Positions 1,645-15,350 of a stretch of DNA of 21,450 bases are shown piece after piece. A program made the translations under genes and the position numbers. How positions within the stretch are numbered: position 1 is the first letter of the stretch; every line of letters begins with the position of its first letter. Source of the stretch: a virus. Location of the stretch: positions 1-21,450 of the IMG/VR virus record IMGVR_UViG_3300043427_000968; one strand, written 5' to 3'. The notes below the pieces were generated by a model. The model was not told the DNA's origin and ran no database searches. It saw nothing but the letters and a program-made list of their open reading frames with translations.

Positions 1645-3590
1645 GATGGCACCGAGAAAGCACGGTTGCTTTGGTCAGCCATATCGCCAGAGGCACTCCA
1701 CATGCCATTTGCGCCTTGCGTCAATTGAACATTCCAATTTTTGTCTACAAGGCTTTGCACAGTTGCTGCAAGTAATTGATTTGTTGCGTTTAATGCGATT
1801 GTATTGGTGTCAAGTGCTTTTAATGTATCAGTAAACTCTTTGGTTGTGTTAAATTCATTGTTGACGCTATTAATAAAATTGCGGATAGCTTCGTTTACGC
1901 CAGCGGTTGTGCCGCTAAATTCAGGCGCCCGTGCGCCAGTTAAGCGTTCAAAACGTGCTTGTGCTTCTCTAAAACCTGGCAGCAGCTTTTGAAAGTCAAC
2001 CTCGGCCCGTTTCTGACGCTCTTGGGAATTCAGGAAACGGTTTAAGCCTTGCGGGTCGCTGCGAACCTTGGTGAACTCCACTACGCTGGTGCGAATGTCG
2101 TCGCGCAGCTTTTCACCGGCCTCGCTCAAGGCCAAAGCGCCTTTTTCAAGCTCTAATCGCGTTTGATTGGCGGCTACGACCTGATCCGATACCAGCTTTT
2201 GTGCATCATCTTCTTTACCAAGTCGCCTGGCCGCATCAATCTGTGCGCCGATTTCACGTTCACGGCGCTGAGCCTCGGCAATGCCAAATTGAATAGCCTG
2301 AACAGAGGCAAGCGTTTCACGAGCAACACCTCGCTCAGCTGCAGCCAAATCCTGCGTGGCTTCAACTTGCTCTTTAATGCTTTCTAGCTTGATATTGTTT
2401 AGGTCAATTTCTTTTTGTAGCTTGATGGTCTCTTTGTCGGTTGCGCTATCTGGCGTTTCTAGGTTGGTCCCAGCTAGGATTCCTTCAAACTCTTTTTTGT
2501 ATTTTTCATATGCCTTGCGGGCCTCTTCTGTTTGACCTGCAACGCCGCCCATTACCTTTTCAATTGTTAGCGCGGCGCCAGCTGCTAGTCCCAAGCCTGC
2601 TGCCAGCACGGCCCATCCTGTCGGGCCTTGCAGTGCCAATACGGCAGCCTGTGCAACAGCCGCCGCCTTGGCCGCAACCTGATAAGCCACCATGGCAGAG
2701 CGCACAACCAAGATGGCTGCAGCGAAAGGCGCCAGTGCCCGACCAAGCGCCAATGTCGCCACGACAAAGCCTTTGATTTTGCCGGCATTGTCTTGAACGA
2801 GCTTGGCAAAGGTCGCAACGCCTGCTGCGACTCCAGCCAATACTTGTACAACGCCTGGGCCTACTGCCGCTGCAATTTGCTCTTTAAGGTTCTCAAAGGC
2901 AACGCCTAGATTTTCGGTTTCTGTTTTGGCGCGGACCGTTTGGCCTGCAAACTTCTTGGCCGCCTCAAAAATCACGTCAGAAGTGATTTTGCCTTCGCCG
3001 CCCAGTTTTTTCAGCTCACCGACGCTAACGCCAAGTTGATCGGCAAGGGCTTGCGACAGTGCGGGAAGGCTCTCCAAAACGGAACGCAGTTCGTCACCCT
3101 GTAGCCGTCCAGACGCAAGACCCTGCTTAAGTTGCAGCAGGCCAGCAGATGCTTCTGCAGCGCTAGCTCCCGATGCTATGGCTGCCTTATTGAGGCCAAC
3201 GAACAAAACCTCAAGCTGCGTCGCGCCAATACCCGTACCCCGCAATGCGGCATAAAGCTGGGCATAGCCCTGCCGCGCCTCGGTGGCGCTGATGCCAAGC
3301 ACGGCCTGAATGCGGGCAACAGCTTCTGATGCCTTCTGCTGCTCTCCGTAAGCAGCCGTCAACGCTTCTAGTTGCAGCTTGGTCTTTTGTGACTCTTGAC
3401 CGGCTGCAATGACTTGTTGAGTAAAGGCGGCGATGCCAACAACACCAACGATCCCAGCCAGATTGCGAAAGGCTCCGGCAATGCTGTCTACCGTGCTAGT
3501 GGCTTGTGTTTTAGCCGCATTCAGCCCCGCTTTGTAGGCCGAGTCATCAACCGACAGCGTTAGTACGGCACTACCGAGACTCTCCGCCAC
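1641..3590 (-). CDS. Tail tape measure protein
   Basis: The protein has 649 residues and a GTG start at 3590..3588; the nearby ATG just upstream is in another frame. It sets tail length and fills the tail tube. Residues about 140-215 carry the classic tape-measure N-terminal signature, with LKQGLASGRLQGDELRSVLE followed by LPALSQALADQLGVS. An Ala/Gly-rich hydrophobic helical segment lies near residues 255-345, and a charged coiled-coil region (KEIDLNNIKLESIKEQ) lies near 395-510. At about 1.5 angstrom per residue this predicts a tail near 95-100 nm (established scaling rule, my arithmetic). The 3' part (about 1660-2560) is clearly more AT-rich than the 5' part and its neighbours. The upstream genes are on the opposite strand, so it must have its own promoter or be reached by antisense read-through. 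Confidence 0.93.
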   Translation of the reverse strand: MAESLGSAVLTLSVDDSAYKAGLNAAKTQATSTVDSIAGAFRNLAGIVGVVGIAAFTQQVIAAGQESQKTKLQLEALTAAYGEQQKASEAVARIQAVLGISATEARQGYAQLYAALRGTGIGATQLEVLFVGLNKAAIASGASAAEASAGLLQLKQGLASGRLQGDELRSVLESLPALSQALADQLGVSVGELKKLGGEGKITSDVIFEAAKKFAGQTVRAKTETENLGVAFENLKEQIAAAVGPGVVQVLAGVAAGVATFAKLVQDNAGKIKGFVVATLALGRALAPFAAAILVVRSAMVAYQVAAKAAAVAQAAVLALQGPTGWAVLAAGLGLAAGAALTIEKVMGGVAGQTEEARKAYEKYKKEFEGILAGTNLETPDSATDKETIKLQKEIDLNNIKLESIKEQVEATQDLAAAERGVARETLASVQAIQFGIAEAQRREREIGAQIDAARRLGKEDDAQKLVSDQVVAANQTRLELEKGALALSEAGEKLRDDIRTSVVEFTKVRSDPQGLNRFLNSQERQKRAEVDFQKLLPGFREAQARFERLTGARAPEFSGTTAGVNEAIRNFINSVNNEFNTTKEFTDTLKALDTNTIALNATNQLLAATVQSLVDKNWNVQLTQGANGMWSASGDMADQSNRAFSVPS

Positions 3591-6485: not shown

Positions 6486-8438
6486 TCAGCGCTTAGCGCT
6501 CCACTGCTTAACGGCCTTGTCAAAGCTGATTTTGCCGCTGACCAGCTGATCACCAAGCCGCACCCCAAAGATGTCGCGGGCCGTCTCCGGGTTGTCCTTG
6601 ACCCAGTTCTTGGCCGCCCGCTTAAAGCTGACCGTCTGCTCACCGCTATCCCCTTCTGCAGGCCGCTTGGTGGCGACGGGCTCACCACTGGGGCTGGTCA
6701 TGTCCTCATCGCGCCACTTGGCCGGTACGAGGAAACACCGGCAATTATGAGTTAGAATGCCACTAGCAAAATACGCCCCGCTGAGCGTAGAAAAATCGTA
6801 TACAGGTACGTCATGCCGCTCCTCAACCTGGACGTTGACCACATTGTCCAGCTCTACCAATCCGGCATGAGCATGAACAAACTGGCCAACGCTCATGGCG
6901 TCAGCATCAAAGCCATCCGTAACTGCCTCAGGCGTGCCGGGGTCACCTTGCGAACCAAGCCCAACCCCGACTTGCTTTTGGTCGTTCAGCTCTACCGCTC
7001 CGGCATGAGCGAAAACCAGGTCGCTCACCATTTTGGCGTTGCTCGTGGTTGCATCCGCAAGCGGCTCATCAAAGCGGGCATCACTCCGCGCACGCAAAGC
7101 GAGGCGGAGTCGCTCAAGTGGAGTCAGATGACTGCCGAGCAGCGAAGCTGCCAAGTTGCTGCTGCCAACAAAGCCGCTCGCGGTCGCGTGCATAGCGAGG
7201 AGGAGCGCATCAAGCGTGCTCAAGTCGTCTACAAGCGCCAGCTGCATATCAGCGACAACGAAAAGCGCATCGCGCATGTGCTCCGCGCACATGGCTTGGC
7301 TGTTGAGCAGCAGTTTCCAGTTCACAGCTGCAATATCGACCTCGCCGTGCATCCCGGCCCCATCGCCGTGGAAATCCATGGGGGCGGCTGGCACGCAACC
7401 TCCAGCCACAGGCGCTTGATGGCTGAGAAGCGCAAACAGCTCTTTGGCCGTGGTTGGGCTTTGATTGAGGTTTGGATCGACAACCGCTTCTGCTTTGAGG
7501 CCGCTACAGACGAGCTGATCGCCCTCTTGGAGCAGCTTGGCAGGCTTCCATCCGTTGCTGGTGAGCACTGGATGGTTCTCGGTAACCGAAAGCAGCCTGT
7601 CGCCGTGCGTGCGGACAGTGACAACGTTTCCGCTGTATACGCTTCGCATACCAGCAGCGAGGATGCCGGGCTCAATCAGCGTGTCGCCTAAGACGCAATT
7701 CATGTGGGGGCTGACCTTGCGGTAGCTGGTGCCAAACCGCTTGCCATCAAGCCCAATGCAGATTGGGCACACCGCTGAATCCAGCACTGCCGTCCAGACC
7801 AGGCCCTGTTCGCCAAGCCAATCTGGGTCGGTCTCAAACTCGTAGATGGCCTGCTGAGCTGCATTGCCCACCTCATGCACGCCCGTGCGGATGATGGCCT
7901 CGACGTTGTTCTCTACGCGCCGGACCACCGCATCCTCAAAGGTACTGATCACCTCGCCGCCCACATCTGACAGCCCCAGTCGGATGTAGCGCTCCACCCG
8001 GTCCGCCACCTGAGCGGGCAGCGTTGCGGTCAACGTATCGGCCAAGGTTTTGCCATTGACCACGGCATTGTTGACCACCTGGCGCACCTGAACGCTGGCC
8101 GCACCTTCAGCGGAGAGCGTGCCCCCTGCTGCCTCAACCATTTGCCGGGCAAAGGTCAACTGCTGCTCAACAAACGGTGCCAACGATTCCTGCAGCGTGG
8201 CCAGCACCGGAACACCCCAGGTCTGCTGCACGCTGCGGGCCACCGCGTTGACCACAGCGCGGATGGTGTTCTCCCGGTTGATGCCAACGGCCAGCGTGCC
8301 GGACTGGACCACGATGCGCTCCACTGCGGCCATTGTGATGCGCAGCTCGCCAAGGGCCTGACGAATCAAACGGTCCTCCACCGCCTTGGACCGCAAGGCA
8401 TTGCGCAGGAACAGTTCAATCTCGTCAGAGATGGCCAT
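6486..8438 (-). CDS. Minor head protein (SPP1 gp7 / Mu gpF-like) interrupted by an intein
   Basis: The precursor has 650 residues; removal of the intein (residues 248-565) would leave about 332, a usual size for this family. The N-extein is helical. It carries RTGVHEVGNAAQQAIYEFET near 184-203 and then the family's Cys-rich signature: WTAVLDSAVCPICIGLDGKRFG near 215-236, KVSPHMN at 241-247. After the intein it continues C-R-C-FLVPAKW. Rejoined, this gives the conserved C..C...H..CRC motif of SPP1 gp7-type head morphogenesis proteins, which are few-copy head proteins linked to the portal and DNA ejection. The ATG overlaps the stop of the 44-residue gene upstream (TGATG). The C-tail (after about 580) is charged and Lys-rich. 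Confidence 0.9.
   Translation of the reverse strand: MAISDEIELFLRNALRSKAVEDRLIRQALGELRITMAAVERIVVQSGTLAVGINRENTIRAVVNAVARSVQQTWGVPVLATLQESLAPFVEQQLTFARQMVEAAGGTLSAEGAASVQVRQVVNNAVVNGKTLADTLTATLPAQVADRVERYIRLGLSDVGGEVISTFEDAVVRRVENNVEAIIRTGVHEVGNAAQQAIYEFETDPDWLGEQGLVWTAVLDSAVCPICIGLDGKRFGTSYRKVSPHMNCVLGDTLIEPGILAAGMRSVYSGNVVTVRTHGDRLLSVTENHPVLTSNGWKPAKLLQEGDQLVCSGLKAEAVVDPNLNQSPTTAKELFALLSHQAPVAGGCVPAAPMDFHGDGAGMHGEVDIAAVNWKLLLNSQAMCAEHMRDALFVVADMQLALVDDLSTLDALLLAMHATASGFVGSSNLAASLLGSHLTPLERLRLALRARSDARFDEPLADATTSNAKMVSDLVFAHAGAVELNDQKQVGVGLGSQGDPGTPEAVTDGFDADAMSVGQFVHAHAGLVELDNVVNVQVEERHDVPVYDFSTLSGAYFASGILTHNCRCFLVPAKWRDEDMTSPSGEPVATKRPAEGDSGEQTVSFKRAAKNWVKDNPETARDIFGVRLGDQLVSGKISFDKAVKQWSAKR
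6744..7697 (-). mobile_element. Intein in the minor head protein
   Basis: The segment is 954 bases and 318 residues. It begins at Cys1 (CVLGDTLIEPG, block A). Block B is GDRLLSVTENHPVLTSNGW with the TxxH motif at T39-H42. It ends with VPVYDFSTLSGAYF (block F) and ASGILTHN, then Cys+1 (block G, His-Asn-Cys). All residues needed for class 1 splicing are present: Cys1, block B Thr/His, penultimate His, terminal Asn and Cys+1. No LAGLIDADG or in-frame HNH endonuclease domain is seen. The roughly 230 residues between blocks B and F look compositionally odd (Ala/Leu/Asp/Val-rich, many His) because they are the antisense translation of the plus-strand gene at 6813..7691. The intein sits in the H..CRC motif, typical of inteins targeting conserved codons. 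Confidence 0.92.
6813..7691 (+). CDS. Homing endonuclease (HTH + Vsr/EDxHD-like), encoded antisense inside the intein
   Basis: The protein has 292 residues and starts at ATG 6813 after CAGGTACGTC, a weak ribosome binding site. Two tandem helix-turn-helix units come first: residues 8-48 (IVQLYQSGMSMNKLANAHGV...) and 56-94 (VQLYRSGMSENQVAHHFGVA...). They share the frame VQLY.SGMS.N..A...GV....IR..L..AG.T.RT. A basic linker follows. The nuclease core is about 147-243, with E150 (SDNEKRIAHVLRAHGL), D176 (CNIDLAVHPG), AVEIHGGGWH at 185-194 and LIEVWIDNRF at 217-226. This is the fold pattern of Vsr/DUF559-type and EDxHD homing nucleases. Residues after about 245 are unstructured-looking antisense of the intein N-domain. 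The TAA stop is opposite the TTA codon of intein Leu3. It presumably cuts intein-free copies of the head gene. Confidence 0.88.
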   Translation: MPLLNLDVDHIVQLYQSGMSMNKLANAHGVSIKAIRNCLRRAGVTLRTKPNPDLLLVVQLYRSGMSENQVAHHFGVARGCIRKRLIKAGITPRTQSEAESLKWSQMTAEQRSCQVAAANKAARGRVHSEEERIKRAQVVYKRQLHISDNEKRIAHVLRAHGLAVEQQFPVHSCNIDLAVHPGPIAVEIHGGGWHATSSHRRLMAEKRKQLFGRGWALIEVWIDNRFCFEAATDELIALLEQLGRLPSVAGEHWMVLGNRKQPVAVRADSDNVSAVYASHTSSEDAGLNQRVA

Positions 8439-8949: not shown

Positions 8950-9333
8950 TCACTTCCGGTAAAAGATCACGGTGGACGATGTTGCCACCCGGCCAATGAA
9001 GGTGCCGGAGGTGCCAGGTTGCACCGCTGCCACGCCCGTCACGGTGACACCAGTGGTGCCAGCCGTGAAGGTCGAGGTGAAGGTGGAACCGCCGAGGTTG
9101 ACGACAACGACCTCAAAGGTCTGGCCGACTTTGGCTTGAGGGCCGAGTTCAGCGATGATCTCAGCGCCCGTGGCAGTGGTGACGGTCTTGTTGCTGGTAG
9201 GGGTGTGAACCACCACAGCGCCAACGCTCTGGGCAGCGGTCAGGGCCACGTCTGCGTTAGCAGCAGTGACCAGACCAAGGCCAGAAGACGAGCGGCCAAA
9301 GGAAGGCTGCTCCAGTTCAAAAAGGGATGCCAT
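8950..9333 (-). CDS. Probable capsid-associated (decoration-like) protein
   Basis: The protein has 127 residues and starts at ATG 9333 behind GAGGT with an 8-base spacer; that site lies in the stop region of the capsid gene. After MASLFELEQPSFGRSSSG the sequence is almost entirely beta-like and Thr/Val/Gly-rich, with VVVVNLGGSTFTSTFTAG near 74-91, ending TFIGRVATSSTVIFYRK. There is no Cys and no membrane segment. Position directly after the major capsid gene, short length and beta composition suggest a head decoration protein or spike, but the order differs from lambda-type phages, where the decoration gene comes before the capsid gene. The family is not recognised with certainty. Confidence 0.78.
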   Translation of the reverse strand: MASLFELEQPSFGRSSSGLGLVTAANADVALTAAQSVGAVVVHTPTSNKTVTTATGAEIIAELGPQAKVGQTFEVVVVNLGGSTFTSTFTAGTTGVTVTGVAAVQPGTSGTFIGRVATSSTVIFYRK

Positions 9334-9344
9334 CGTTAGTTACC

Positions 9345-10358
9345 TCAGAAGTTGGGGTTGGAGACGATGGACACGATCCCGAGGTTTTTGGTCTCGTAGA
9401 TCTGTTCCCAGTTGGTCACGGTCTCCAGCGTGGCGCGGGAGGGGTTCACACCACCAGCCTTGTAAGACAGGCCGAGGGGGTGATAGAGGTTGTGCCAGTG
9501 GACCGACATGGCATCACTCAAAGCGAGGATGTCACGGTCAGTTTCAGTGACCAGACCCATCTGGCTGCCGGAAGCCATTGCACCAGGGGTGAACAGGTAC
9601 GAGGCGTATTGGGTGCCGTCGTTGTTCACGTCGTCGGAAACGATTACGCGAAGGCCCATGTAGGTCGGCACGTTCACTTCACCGAACGAGCTGGCCACGC
9701 TGCCGCCAAAGGCGTCAGGCATGGAGCTGTCGGCAGTGGCGCGAGCCTCAGCGGCGGTCACATAGTCAATAGCCCGGCGCTCAACGAGGTCGTAGTAGAC
9801 CTTGCTGTGCATGGCAATCACGCTCAGCTTCTCGCCTTGGTCGCCCAGGGCAGCGCGAGCTTCAGCCACCTTGCCGGGGGACAGCACGGTTGCCGTGGCA
9901 TTGGAATCAATGGCCAGAGCTTTCAGCGCACCCGTGGTGTTGCTGGTCAGCGGTCCAAAGATGCCTTTGAGGATGGCGAACACATCCTTCTGCTGCTGGT
10001 GGGAGATGTAATCAGCCACCTTGCGGCCAATGGCAGCCATGGGGTCATCACCAGCGGCCAGAGCGGCCAGGGTGCGGACTTCCCATGCGCGGCCACGGTG
10101 CAGCACCGGGCAGATTTGCTTCTCGGCACCGATCTTGCCGGGGATCAGGCTGGTGGAATCGCTCAGCACTTCAGCGTCACCGCTGAGGTTGGCGGTCCAG
10201 CTGGGCACGTTGACATAATCGCCGCCTTCGGTGGCATTGAGGATGTCAAGGGGTTGGATGACGCCCGACTGCAGGAACGCAGAGCGGGTGGTTACAGCTT
10301 CATCAACGTAAGCCGAAAAAATCTCGGGAACGATGATGTCGCTACGCAGTGTTGCCAC
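9345..10358 (-). CDS. Major capsid protein (HK97 fold)
   Basis: The protein has 337 residues and a GTG start at 10358..10356, supported by a strong AAGGAG site 8 bases upstream. The N-terminal segment (IIVPEIFSAYVDEAVTTRSA, then FLQSGVI) is the coat-protein arm. VNVPSWTANLSGDAEVLSDS near 49-68 matches the strained strand before the spine helix. AAIGRKVADYISHQQQKDVF near 108-127 is the long spine helix, and the remainder has alternating strands typical of the A and P domains (GLRVIVSDDVNNDG, ILALSDAMSVHWHNLYHPLG). It follows a scaffold gene and is the icosahedral shell subunit. There is no obvious protease gene in the window, so maturation may not involve cleavage, or the protease is elsewhere. 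Confidence 0.93.
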   Translation of the reverse strand: MATLRSDIIVPEIFSAYVDEAVTTRSAFLQSGVIQPLDILNATEGGDYVNVPSWTANLSGDAEVLSDSTSLIPGKIGAEKQICPVLHRGRAWEVRTLAALAAGDDPMAAIGRKVADYISHQQQKDVFAILKGIFGPLTSNTTGALKALAIDSNATATVLSPGKVAEARAALGDQGEKLSVIAMHSKVYYDLVERRAIDYVTAAEARATADSSMPDAFGGSVASSFGEVNVPTYMGLRVIVSDDVNNDGTQYASYLFTPGAMASGSQMGLVTETDRDILALSDAMSVHWHNLYHPLGLSYKAGGVNPSRATLETVTNWEQIYETKNLGIVSIVSNPNF

Positions 10359-10432
10359 TGTAATAGCTCCTTAGTGGATGGTTTGTAGGTAGCCACAGGC
10401 TGCGTGGGGGCCACAAGCCATCCCAGTTGAAG

Positions 10433-14636: not shown

Positions 14637-15350
14637 CTAAAGCAGCTTGGCGCCCTTGCGGATGTTGTCCGCAGCCCAGAGCGGCTGGAGGTTCGTGTAG
14701 TGAAAGCAGATGCGCTGCTGAGCTGGATCGCTTAGGTCAAAACTGGCGCAGGGCCGGATGTGGTCAATGTGCCAGCCATTGCGGCCATAGTTCTGCCAGG
14801 TCATGCCTTCGCTGAACTGGGACTGCAAGTGTCGGCGCAAAGCCAATACAGAGCAACCAATCAAAGCCTCCGTTGAATTGGATTTTGTTGCTTTGTAGCG
14901 GATCATTGCAATGGTGATCCTGTTCCTCAAGTTGAGAGCAATAGCTCTATCGGTGCCTTGATCGCGCTGGCGTTGCCAGTACCGTCGATAAATTGCTTGG
15001 ATCTTGGCTCTGTATTGCGGATCTGCGTAATAACGGTCGCGCCTTTGCTCTGTGTATTGCTTGAGACGGTCCTTGTTGCGCAGGCGCCACGCCTGGATTA
15101 CTGCTCTTTTCTTGTTGCTGTGTTTGCGAGCAGATCGACGCTCGTTCGCACGGACCCTTTCAGGGTCGCGCAATCGCTCGTTTGCCTTTTGCTGCCTATC
15201 GCACTCTAAGCAGTTCCACTTGCGCACACCACGGACGGAGACATGGCCATTGCTGCAAGGGATGCCAGTGATGTAGTGCCTTAAACCTTGAGCAATGGCT
15301 TGATCCCTGCTCAGGAAAGGCCCGTAAACAAGTTGTGCGATGATTTCCAT
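14637..15350 (-). CDS. HNH-type endonuclease next to terL
   Basis: The protein has 237 residues from ATG 15350, with AGG five bases upstream. The N-terminus has A..QGLRHYITGIPCSNGH near 20-36 and KWNCLECDRQQ near 44-54, a CxxGH...CxxC zinc-finger type common in phage and algal-virus HNH proteins. A long Arg/Lys-rich helical region (55-135) probably contacts DNA. The C-terminus has GCSVLALRRHLQSQFSEGMT near 165-184, NGWHIDHIRPCASFDL near 191-206 (the 'DHI.PC..FDL' HNH core) and FHYTNLQPLWAADNIRKG near 217-233. The gene lies between the intact terL (63 bases upstream) and a remnant terL end (next base downstream of the stop), which strongly suggests a homing element inserted at the terL 3' end. 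Confidence 0.87.
   Translation of the reverse strand: MEIIAQLVYGPFLSRDQAIAQGLRHYITGIPCSNGHVSVRGVRKWNCLECDRQQKANERLRDPERVRANERRSARKHSNKKRAVIQAWRLRNKDRLKQYTEQRRDRYYADPQYRAKIQAIYRRYWQRQRDQGTDRAIALNLRNRITIAMIRYKATKSNSTEALIGCSVLALRRHLQSQFSEGMTWQNYGRNGWHIDHIRPCASFDLSDPAQQRICFHYTNLQPLWAADNIRKGAKLL

Follow-up and report, generated by a model that had tools for sequence, protein, structure and literature searches.

The window analysed here, the whole 21,450-nucleotide stretch of IMG/VR record IMGVR_UViG_3300043427_000968, carries on its minus strand an open reading frame (positions 8438..6486) for the precursor of a MuF-like minor head protein of 650 amino acids, which matches phrog_15127 over its entire length (2e-44). 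Residues 1–247 (7698..8438, minus) form the N-extein, recognised by the Pfam family Phage_Mu_F (1.1e-4). This is followed by a class 1 intein of 318 residues (P0001 residues 248–565; 7697..6744, minus; Pfam Intein_splicing, 2.7e-5) and by a C-extein made up of residues 566–650 (6486..6743, minus), assigned from the sequence and from intein-less alleles. The intein starts at Cys248, has its block B at TENHP (7569..7583, minus) and ends with the His-Asn pair of block G, of which the asparagine is Asn565, directly before Cys+1 (6741..6749, minus). These limits are fixed by the intein-less alleles, which read ..SPHPQ^CRCF.. across the junction, and the complete class 1 intein proposed in the first-pass annotation (Cys1, TENHP, His-Asn and Cys+1) is confirmed. 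The intein-containing frame is uninterrupted, without the two separately translated halves of a split intein, and it does not contain an endonuclease domain; the nuclease is located on the opposite strand.

There, wholly within the intein and in exact antisense codon register with it, lies a putative homing-endonuclease gene (HEN) of 292 codons (6813..7691, plus), supported by tblastn relatives, an omega of about 0.2 and an AlphaFold2 model. A Shine-Dalgarno-like AGGT (6804..6807, plus) is present 5 nucleotides upstream of its ATG. The encoded protein starts with two helix-turn-helix (HTH) units, the first formed by residues 8–41 (6834..6935, plus; Pfam HTH families) and the second by residues 54–87 (6972..7073, plus; Pfam HTH_7), both with corresponding helices in the model. 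The nuclease domain comprises residues 148–242 (7254..7538, plus) and is identified by Pfam MTES_1575 (4.6e-9), by profile search and by Foldseek. The TAA stop codon (7689–7691) is the complement of the codon for Leu3 of the intein. No stop interrupts the frame, and none of its 47 leucine and serine codons is TTA, CTA or TCA. What had been read from the letters alone, an intact plus-strand gene with two HTH units and a Vsr-like nuclease lying codon against codon inside the intein, stands in each of its parts, with Pfam assigning the HTH units and a REase_MTES_1575/Vsr-like domain. A promoter scan recognised no sigma-70-like promoter for the plus gene, the orientation of which opposes the transcription of its neighbours. 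Elsewhere in the window, an Endonuclease VII-like protein (14637..15350, minus; phrog_1035, 1e-15) adjoins the large terminase gene and is possibly another, free-standing homing nuclease.

The AlphaFold2 model of the plus-strand protein (pLDDT 88.5) contains the two HTH units and an alpha/beta nuclease. Foldseek relates this model to Vsr and to I-Bth0305I (PDB entry 3r3p) with a probability of 1.00, at E-values of only 5.6e-3 to 7.1e-3. A profile search of solved structures finds 3r3p at an E-value of 8.4e-6, while the same search with the single HEN sequence gave no match. Among the relatives, Glu150, Gln167, Asn174, Asp176 and Glu187 are invariant, which gives a catalytic signature of E-D-E with an additional Q and N; no invariant histidine or aspartate follows. 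From these comparisons the predicted nuclease is related to the EDxHD/Vsr group, but strict membership is not claimed, because conservation does not extend to the second half of the EDxHD signature.

A long antisense frame could also arise without being a gene, simply from GC-rich codon bias in a linker coded on the sense strand. Within the window by itself the evidence against this is thin. Avoidance of TTA, CTA and TCA in the window's nuclease alone, where 3.6 such codons are expected, has a P of about 0.02 and was rejected as proof, all the more as a longer antisense frame of 353 codons (9327..10388, plus) lies, also in codon register, over the major head gene (10358..9345, minus; phrog_247, 8e-75). 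No PHROG or other family match was found for this second frame, which acts as a negative control for long antisense frames. That the HEN frame is beyond chance is a conclusion from homology, selection and conservation in relatives, all read from sequence.

A tblastn search with the plus-strand protein retrieved 127 GenBank phage records; in the loci examined, from phages of Gordonia, Vibrio, Idiomarina, Aggregatibacter, Salmonella, Klebsiella and Escherichia, the relatives are encoded opposite minor head proteins, in antisense orientation. About 66 distinct loci, with GC contents from 35 to 69%, were collected by scanning viral contigs and genomes. The arrangement is not unique to the window phage: in 64 of the roughly 66 loci the nuclease gene is antisense, codon on codon, within a MuF intein, with a frame open through the whole nuclease match, a widespread class. 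The sense proteins contain Phage_Mu_F in 52 of 60 cases and an intein splicing domain in 53 of 60. The first-pass observation is confirmed and reaches far beyond a single window.

Two loci are exceptions to the open register frame. In Acinetobacter phage IME285 (455–1348) a free-standing relative of the nuclease, with 12 antisense stops, adjoins a MuF gene that lacks the intein and is oriented convergently with it; this relative may be a homing gene that stands alone and has the same target. Homologues of the plus-strand protein thus exist outside the antisense context, as does the nuclease domain, which matches unrelated solved nucleases. The second exception, in IMGVR_UViG_3300010222_000170 (about 2327–3079), is an HNH-type nuclease that has only the DNA-binding module, the HTH and a QSEAExLKWSQM motif, in common with HEN. 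As this module is here carried by an HNH nuclease, the locus suggests that DNA-binding modules are swapped between nuclease types. At another locus (L046, 1181–3190) the HEN frame is 670 codons long from stop to stop, compared with the usual 240–370, and the protein seems to carry additional N-terminal HTH sequence. Two copies (L048 and L073) have decayed, with a stop in the nuclease and the intein frame still open.

For a sample that does not depend on the nuclease, the carboxy-terminal end of the intein, G-I-x-x-H-N-C-R-C, was searched for, yielding at least 120 contigs. Among the matches listed, 104 of 120 contigs (90 clusters at 90% identity) have the antisense nuclease, and the sense frame is open across the nuclease match in all 104. 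The nuclease cores of these listed loci are likewise free of stops, bar one uncertain case (L234) near the start of the match. Apparent stops occur in 19 of the 104 listed nuclease matches, nearly all at the natural carboxy-terminal end, 78–105 residues beyond the catalytic glutamate; two are located right where the match begins, and one of these belongs to L234, the motif position of which is uncertain. The listed contigs without the nuclease comprise four complete inteins of another type, the rest being mostly cut by contig ends. A shortened version of this intein type was not seen among the sampled loci listed.

The exact codon register makes it possible to class every substitution as synonymous or not in each of the two frames. 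Over the intein linker, in two separate clades, omega is 0.16–0.23 for the HEN frame and 0.43–0.59 (about 0.45–0.6) for the sense frame, and the 95% bootstrap intervals exclude 1 in both. As a control, the exteins have an omega of about 0.16 in the sense frame and of about 1.0–1.5 in the antisense frame. Across 59 loci, some 440 leucine and serine codons that would break the sense frame are expected in the nuclease, and none is seen. The pair counts behind the omegas, the count of frame-breaking codons, and the tests of the shared motif and of the start and Shine-Dalgarno codons described below, treat related sequences as independent, so no exact probabilities are claimed. Checked by dN/dS, then, the plus frame is under purifying selection and the intein frame under moderate constraint; as far as comparison of sequences can establish it, the two genes show the constraint on each frame that is required of a pair overlapping in antisense. 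A by-product of codon bias is hardly credible in this light: the purifying selection that acts specifically on the plus frame (omega of about 0.2) already refutes it, and it is opposed by the homology to solved nucleases with a high-confidence fold, by frames that remain open in genomes of 35–45% GC, by the free-standing relative and by the embedded start codon and Shine-Dalgarno sequence.

These latter signals can be followed in the codons of intein block F. In relatives where this block reads H-V/I-Y-N-L, the histidine codon is CAT in 27 of 28, which provides the HEN ATG on the other strand, and the leucine codon is CTC in 23 of 33 (background 0.19), which places GGAGGT or GAGGT before that ATG. 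The window's own AGGT is weaker than the GGAGGT found at the equivalent place in many relatives. To judge from this codon usage, the predicted start codon of the nuclease gene, in many relatives together with its Shine-Dalgarno sequence, is written into synonymous codons opposite block F.

A second shared element is located in the nuclease core (7362..7373, both strands), where the window encodes FHGD in the intein and I-A-V-E, residues 184–187, in HEN. Among the relatives, [VI]-A-V-E is almost always coded by [AG]TC GCC GTG GAA, which is F-H-G-D on the other strand. Alanine is GCC in 64 of 64, valine GTG in 57 of 57 and glutamate GAA in 61 of 66, against backgrounds of 0.32, 0.41 and 0.40, respectively; the sense residues F, H, G and D are kept in 60–64 of 66. 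Ten of the twelve bases are almost fixed among very different genomes, as they might also be if these codons carried a signal in DNA or RNA, such as a site of regulation or one bound by a nuclease, and not two protein motifs. Such a signal appears improbable, since what variation there is, GAC/GAT (V or I in the nuclease) and more rarely CAC/CAT (V or M), falls where both proteins tolerate change. The codons used are the intersection of what the two motifs allow, which indicates that the sense motif is under a constraint of its own. When FHGD was searched for with free codons, 23 contigs were obtained, with the nuclease frame open in all 23, which ties FHGD to the overlap. As a general intein motif FHGD was rejected, no FHGD intein without the antisense nuclease having been found among these 23 contigs. 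Whether the two motifs are mutually locked, with a catalytic strand [VI]AVE and an FHGD needed for splicing read from a common twelve bases, is in our estimate evenly balanced. If they are, almost any deletion or shift of the nuclease would disrupt a head protein that is essential; the decay usual among homing endonucleases would be slowed, which would explain the intact cores in the listed loci (104 of 104) and the absence of shortened inteins; and a mobile element would provide a natural, widespread case of Rodin-Ohno-like coding of sense and antisense motifs.

On the intein side, the residues of the splicing reaction are invariant among the relatives: Cys1 and the block B histidine in 65 of 65, the terminal asparagine and Cys+1 in 64 of 64. 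The penultimate histidine is present in the window intein and is a serine in many relatives. In the AlphaFold2 model, residues 1–65 and 280–318 of the intein, mostly at pLDDT 77–96, form a Hint core, which Foldseek matches to the RecA, GyrA and DnaB inteins, including Mtu RecA and Mxe GyrA, at probabilities of 0.97–1.00. Self-splicing of the precursor is inferred from the invariant residues and this fold. Between the two parts of the core, the pLDDT is below 50 over most of residues 132–279, and the stretch facing the two HTH units is disordered, while residues of about 80–130, around FHGD, are partly ordered beside the Hint core. The sense frame might accordingly be thought merely passively open, an inert, stop-free read-through linker opposite a real nuclease; the low pLDDT and a linker that is less constrained than the nuclease would fit. 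Applied to the whole linker this seems rather unlikely, given sense omegas with intervals below 1, an FHGD kept beyond what the nuclease requires and the partial order near the Hint core, and it is partly true, for the HTH-facing half. The linker between blocks B and F had been described at first as resembling no known intein domain and as a splicing linker. Its HTH-facing part does look disordered, but it is not mere filler as a whole, and residues of about 80–130 with the conserved FHGD appear to belong to the intein as a segment under selection.

Signs of mobility come from the exteins. Intein-less MuF alleles (L095–L099) are 91–96% identical to the window exteins, with the exact insertion point ..SPHPQ^CRCF.., and the intein-bearing and intein-less forms are both present in metagenome 3300043427. 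On the extein tree the distribution of the intein is patchy: L001, which has the intein, clusters with L095 and L096, which lack it (support 0.97), and the window, again with the intein, falls outside this group. Among cultured Guernseyvirinae, the intein-bearing phage Snoke has many intein-less relatives at 85–90% identity; NicoleGrasset_Bas72, a Kagunavirus without the intein, reaches about 90% in MuF. The higher DNA similarity of inteins than of exteins was rejected as proof of transfer, because the overlap itself slows change. Weak matches of HEN to Cbp1 HTH repeats and to restriction and defence models leave room for a transcriptional regulator or a defence nuclease in place of a homing enzyme, which we regard as very unlikely in view of the single fixed gene site across phages, the presence/absence polymorphism and patchy distribution of the intein, and I-Bth0305I as the nearest solved homing relative.

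On the computed anatomy, register, conservation, selection and presence/absence polymorphism, we consider it highly probable that the locus is a mobile intein with its homing endonuclease encoded antisense, codon against codon, in the intein's own frame. The minus strand would be translated as the MuF head-protein precursor, from which the intein would splice itself out. From the plus strand would come a protein of its own, in which two HTH units are joined to a Vsr/I-Bth0305I-like nuclease. This nuclease is inferred to act on MuF genes that lack the intein, cleaving them at the conserved ..N/Q^CRC site, and repair from an intein-bearing copy would move intein and nuclease together. The FHGD segment of the antisense-coded linker may have become a selected part of the intein, by which the two genes would be interlocked. 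Splicing, cleavage, transcription and expression of the plus gene, and homing are inferred.

Canonical mobile inteins such as PI-SceI, PI-PfuI and TliVMA (PMC8966425, PMC6801210) likewise have a Hint domain, a conserved host site, intein-less alleles and endonuclease information between blocks B and F. Their endonuclease is in frame, however, while that of the window intein is a separate protein of the opposite strand, with the intein frame as its antisense. I-Bth0305I (PDB entry 3r3p; PMC3943268) has a nuclease core akin to that of HEN, likewise preceded by an elongated DNA-binding region, but resides in a group I intron, whereas HEN is an antisense gene in an intein and does not conserve the His/Asp signature. 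Endonuclease genes on the complementary strand of the element that carries them are known from the Porphyra S1506 group I introns, where they are mostly decayed (PMC2585584); what lies opposite the gene there is a loop of the intron RNA, whereas in the window family it is a protein frame that is translated and under selection, and nearly all copies of the gene are intact. The bacterial antisense overlapping genes laoB and ano, which likewise lie opposite another protein frame, are short and have a narrow distribution (PMC5810103, PMC5960689; reviewed in PMC7457138), in contrast to the roughly 290 codons of HEN, its occurrence in many phage groups and the selection measurable in both frames. 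Capsid-gene inteins have been annotated in the Jerseyvirus and Kagunavirus phages Snoke, UPWr_S and vKMB36 (PMC8425127, PMC11162368); Snoke belongs to the family of the window intein, and UPWr_S2–S5 match Snoke. Those annotations note the intein only, and an antisense gene is absent from the annotation of every nested locus whose annotation was examined. The split-intein fractured-gene loci of Dassa et al. (2009) reportedly contain a free Vsr-like endonuclease gene between the intein halves; the window locus resembles these in that its Vsr-like endonuclease has a gene of its own, and differs in that the intein is contiguous, with codons that overlap the endonuclease gene. In the open-licence literature, to which the search was limited, no account was found of an endonuclease gene lying opposite an intein frame that is itself translated. 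Endonucleases in frame with inteins, at split-intein loci and antisense in group I introns are the known relatives, beside which the architecture described here and its reach are unusual.

If the reading as a mobile intein with an antisense endonuclease holds, the family illustrates a novel hiding place for selfish genes, with the endonuclease on the other strand of codons that the host must keep open, and one stretch of DNA would encode two proteins, both kept by evolution. Long phage genes of this class, opposite head genes, have also escaped annotation. Its size and its occurrence in cultured phages open the family to direct tests of three questions: does coding overlap shield selfish genes from decay, how do two proteins evolve when they share their codons, and which parts of an intein can a Hint domain acquire from antisense sequence?
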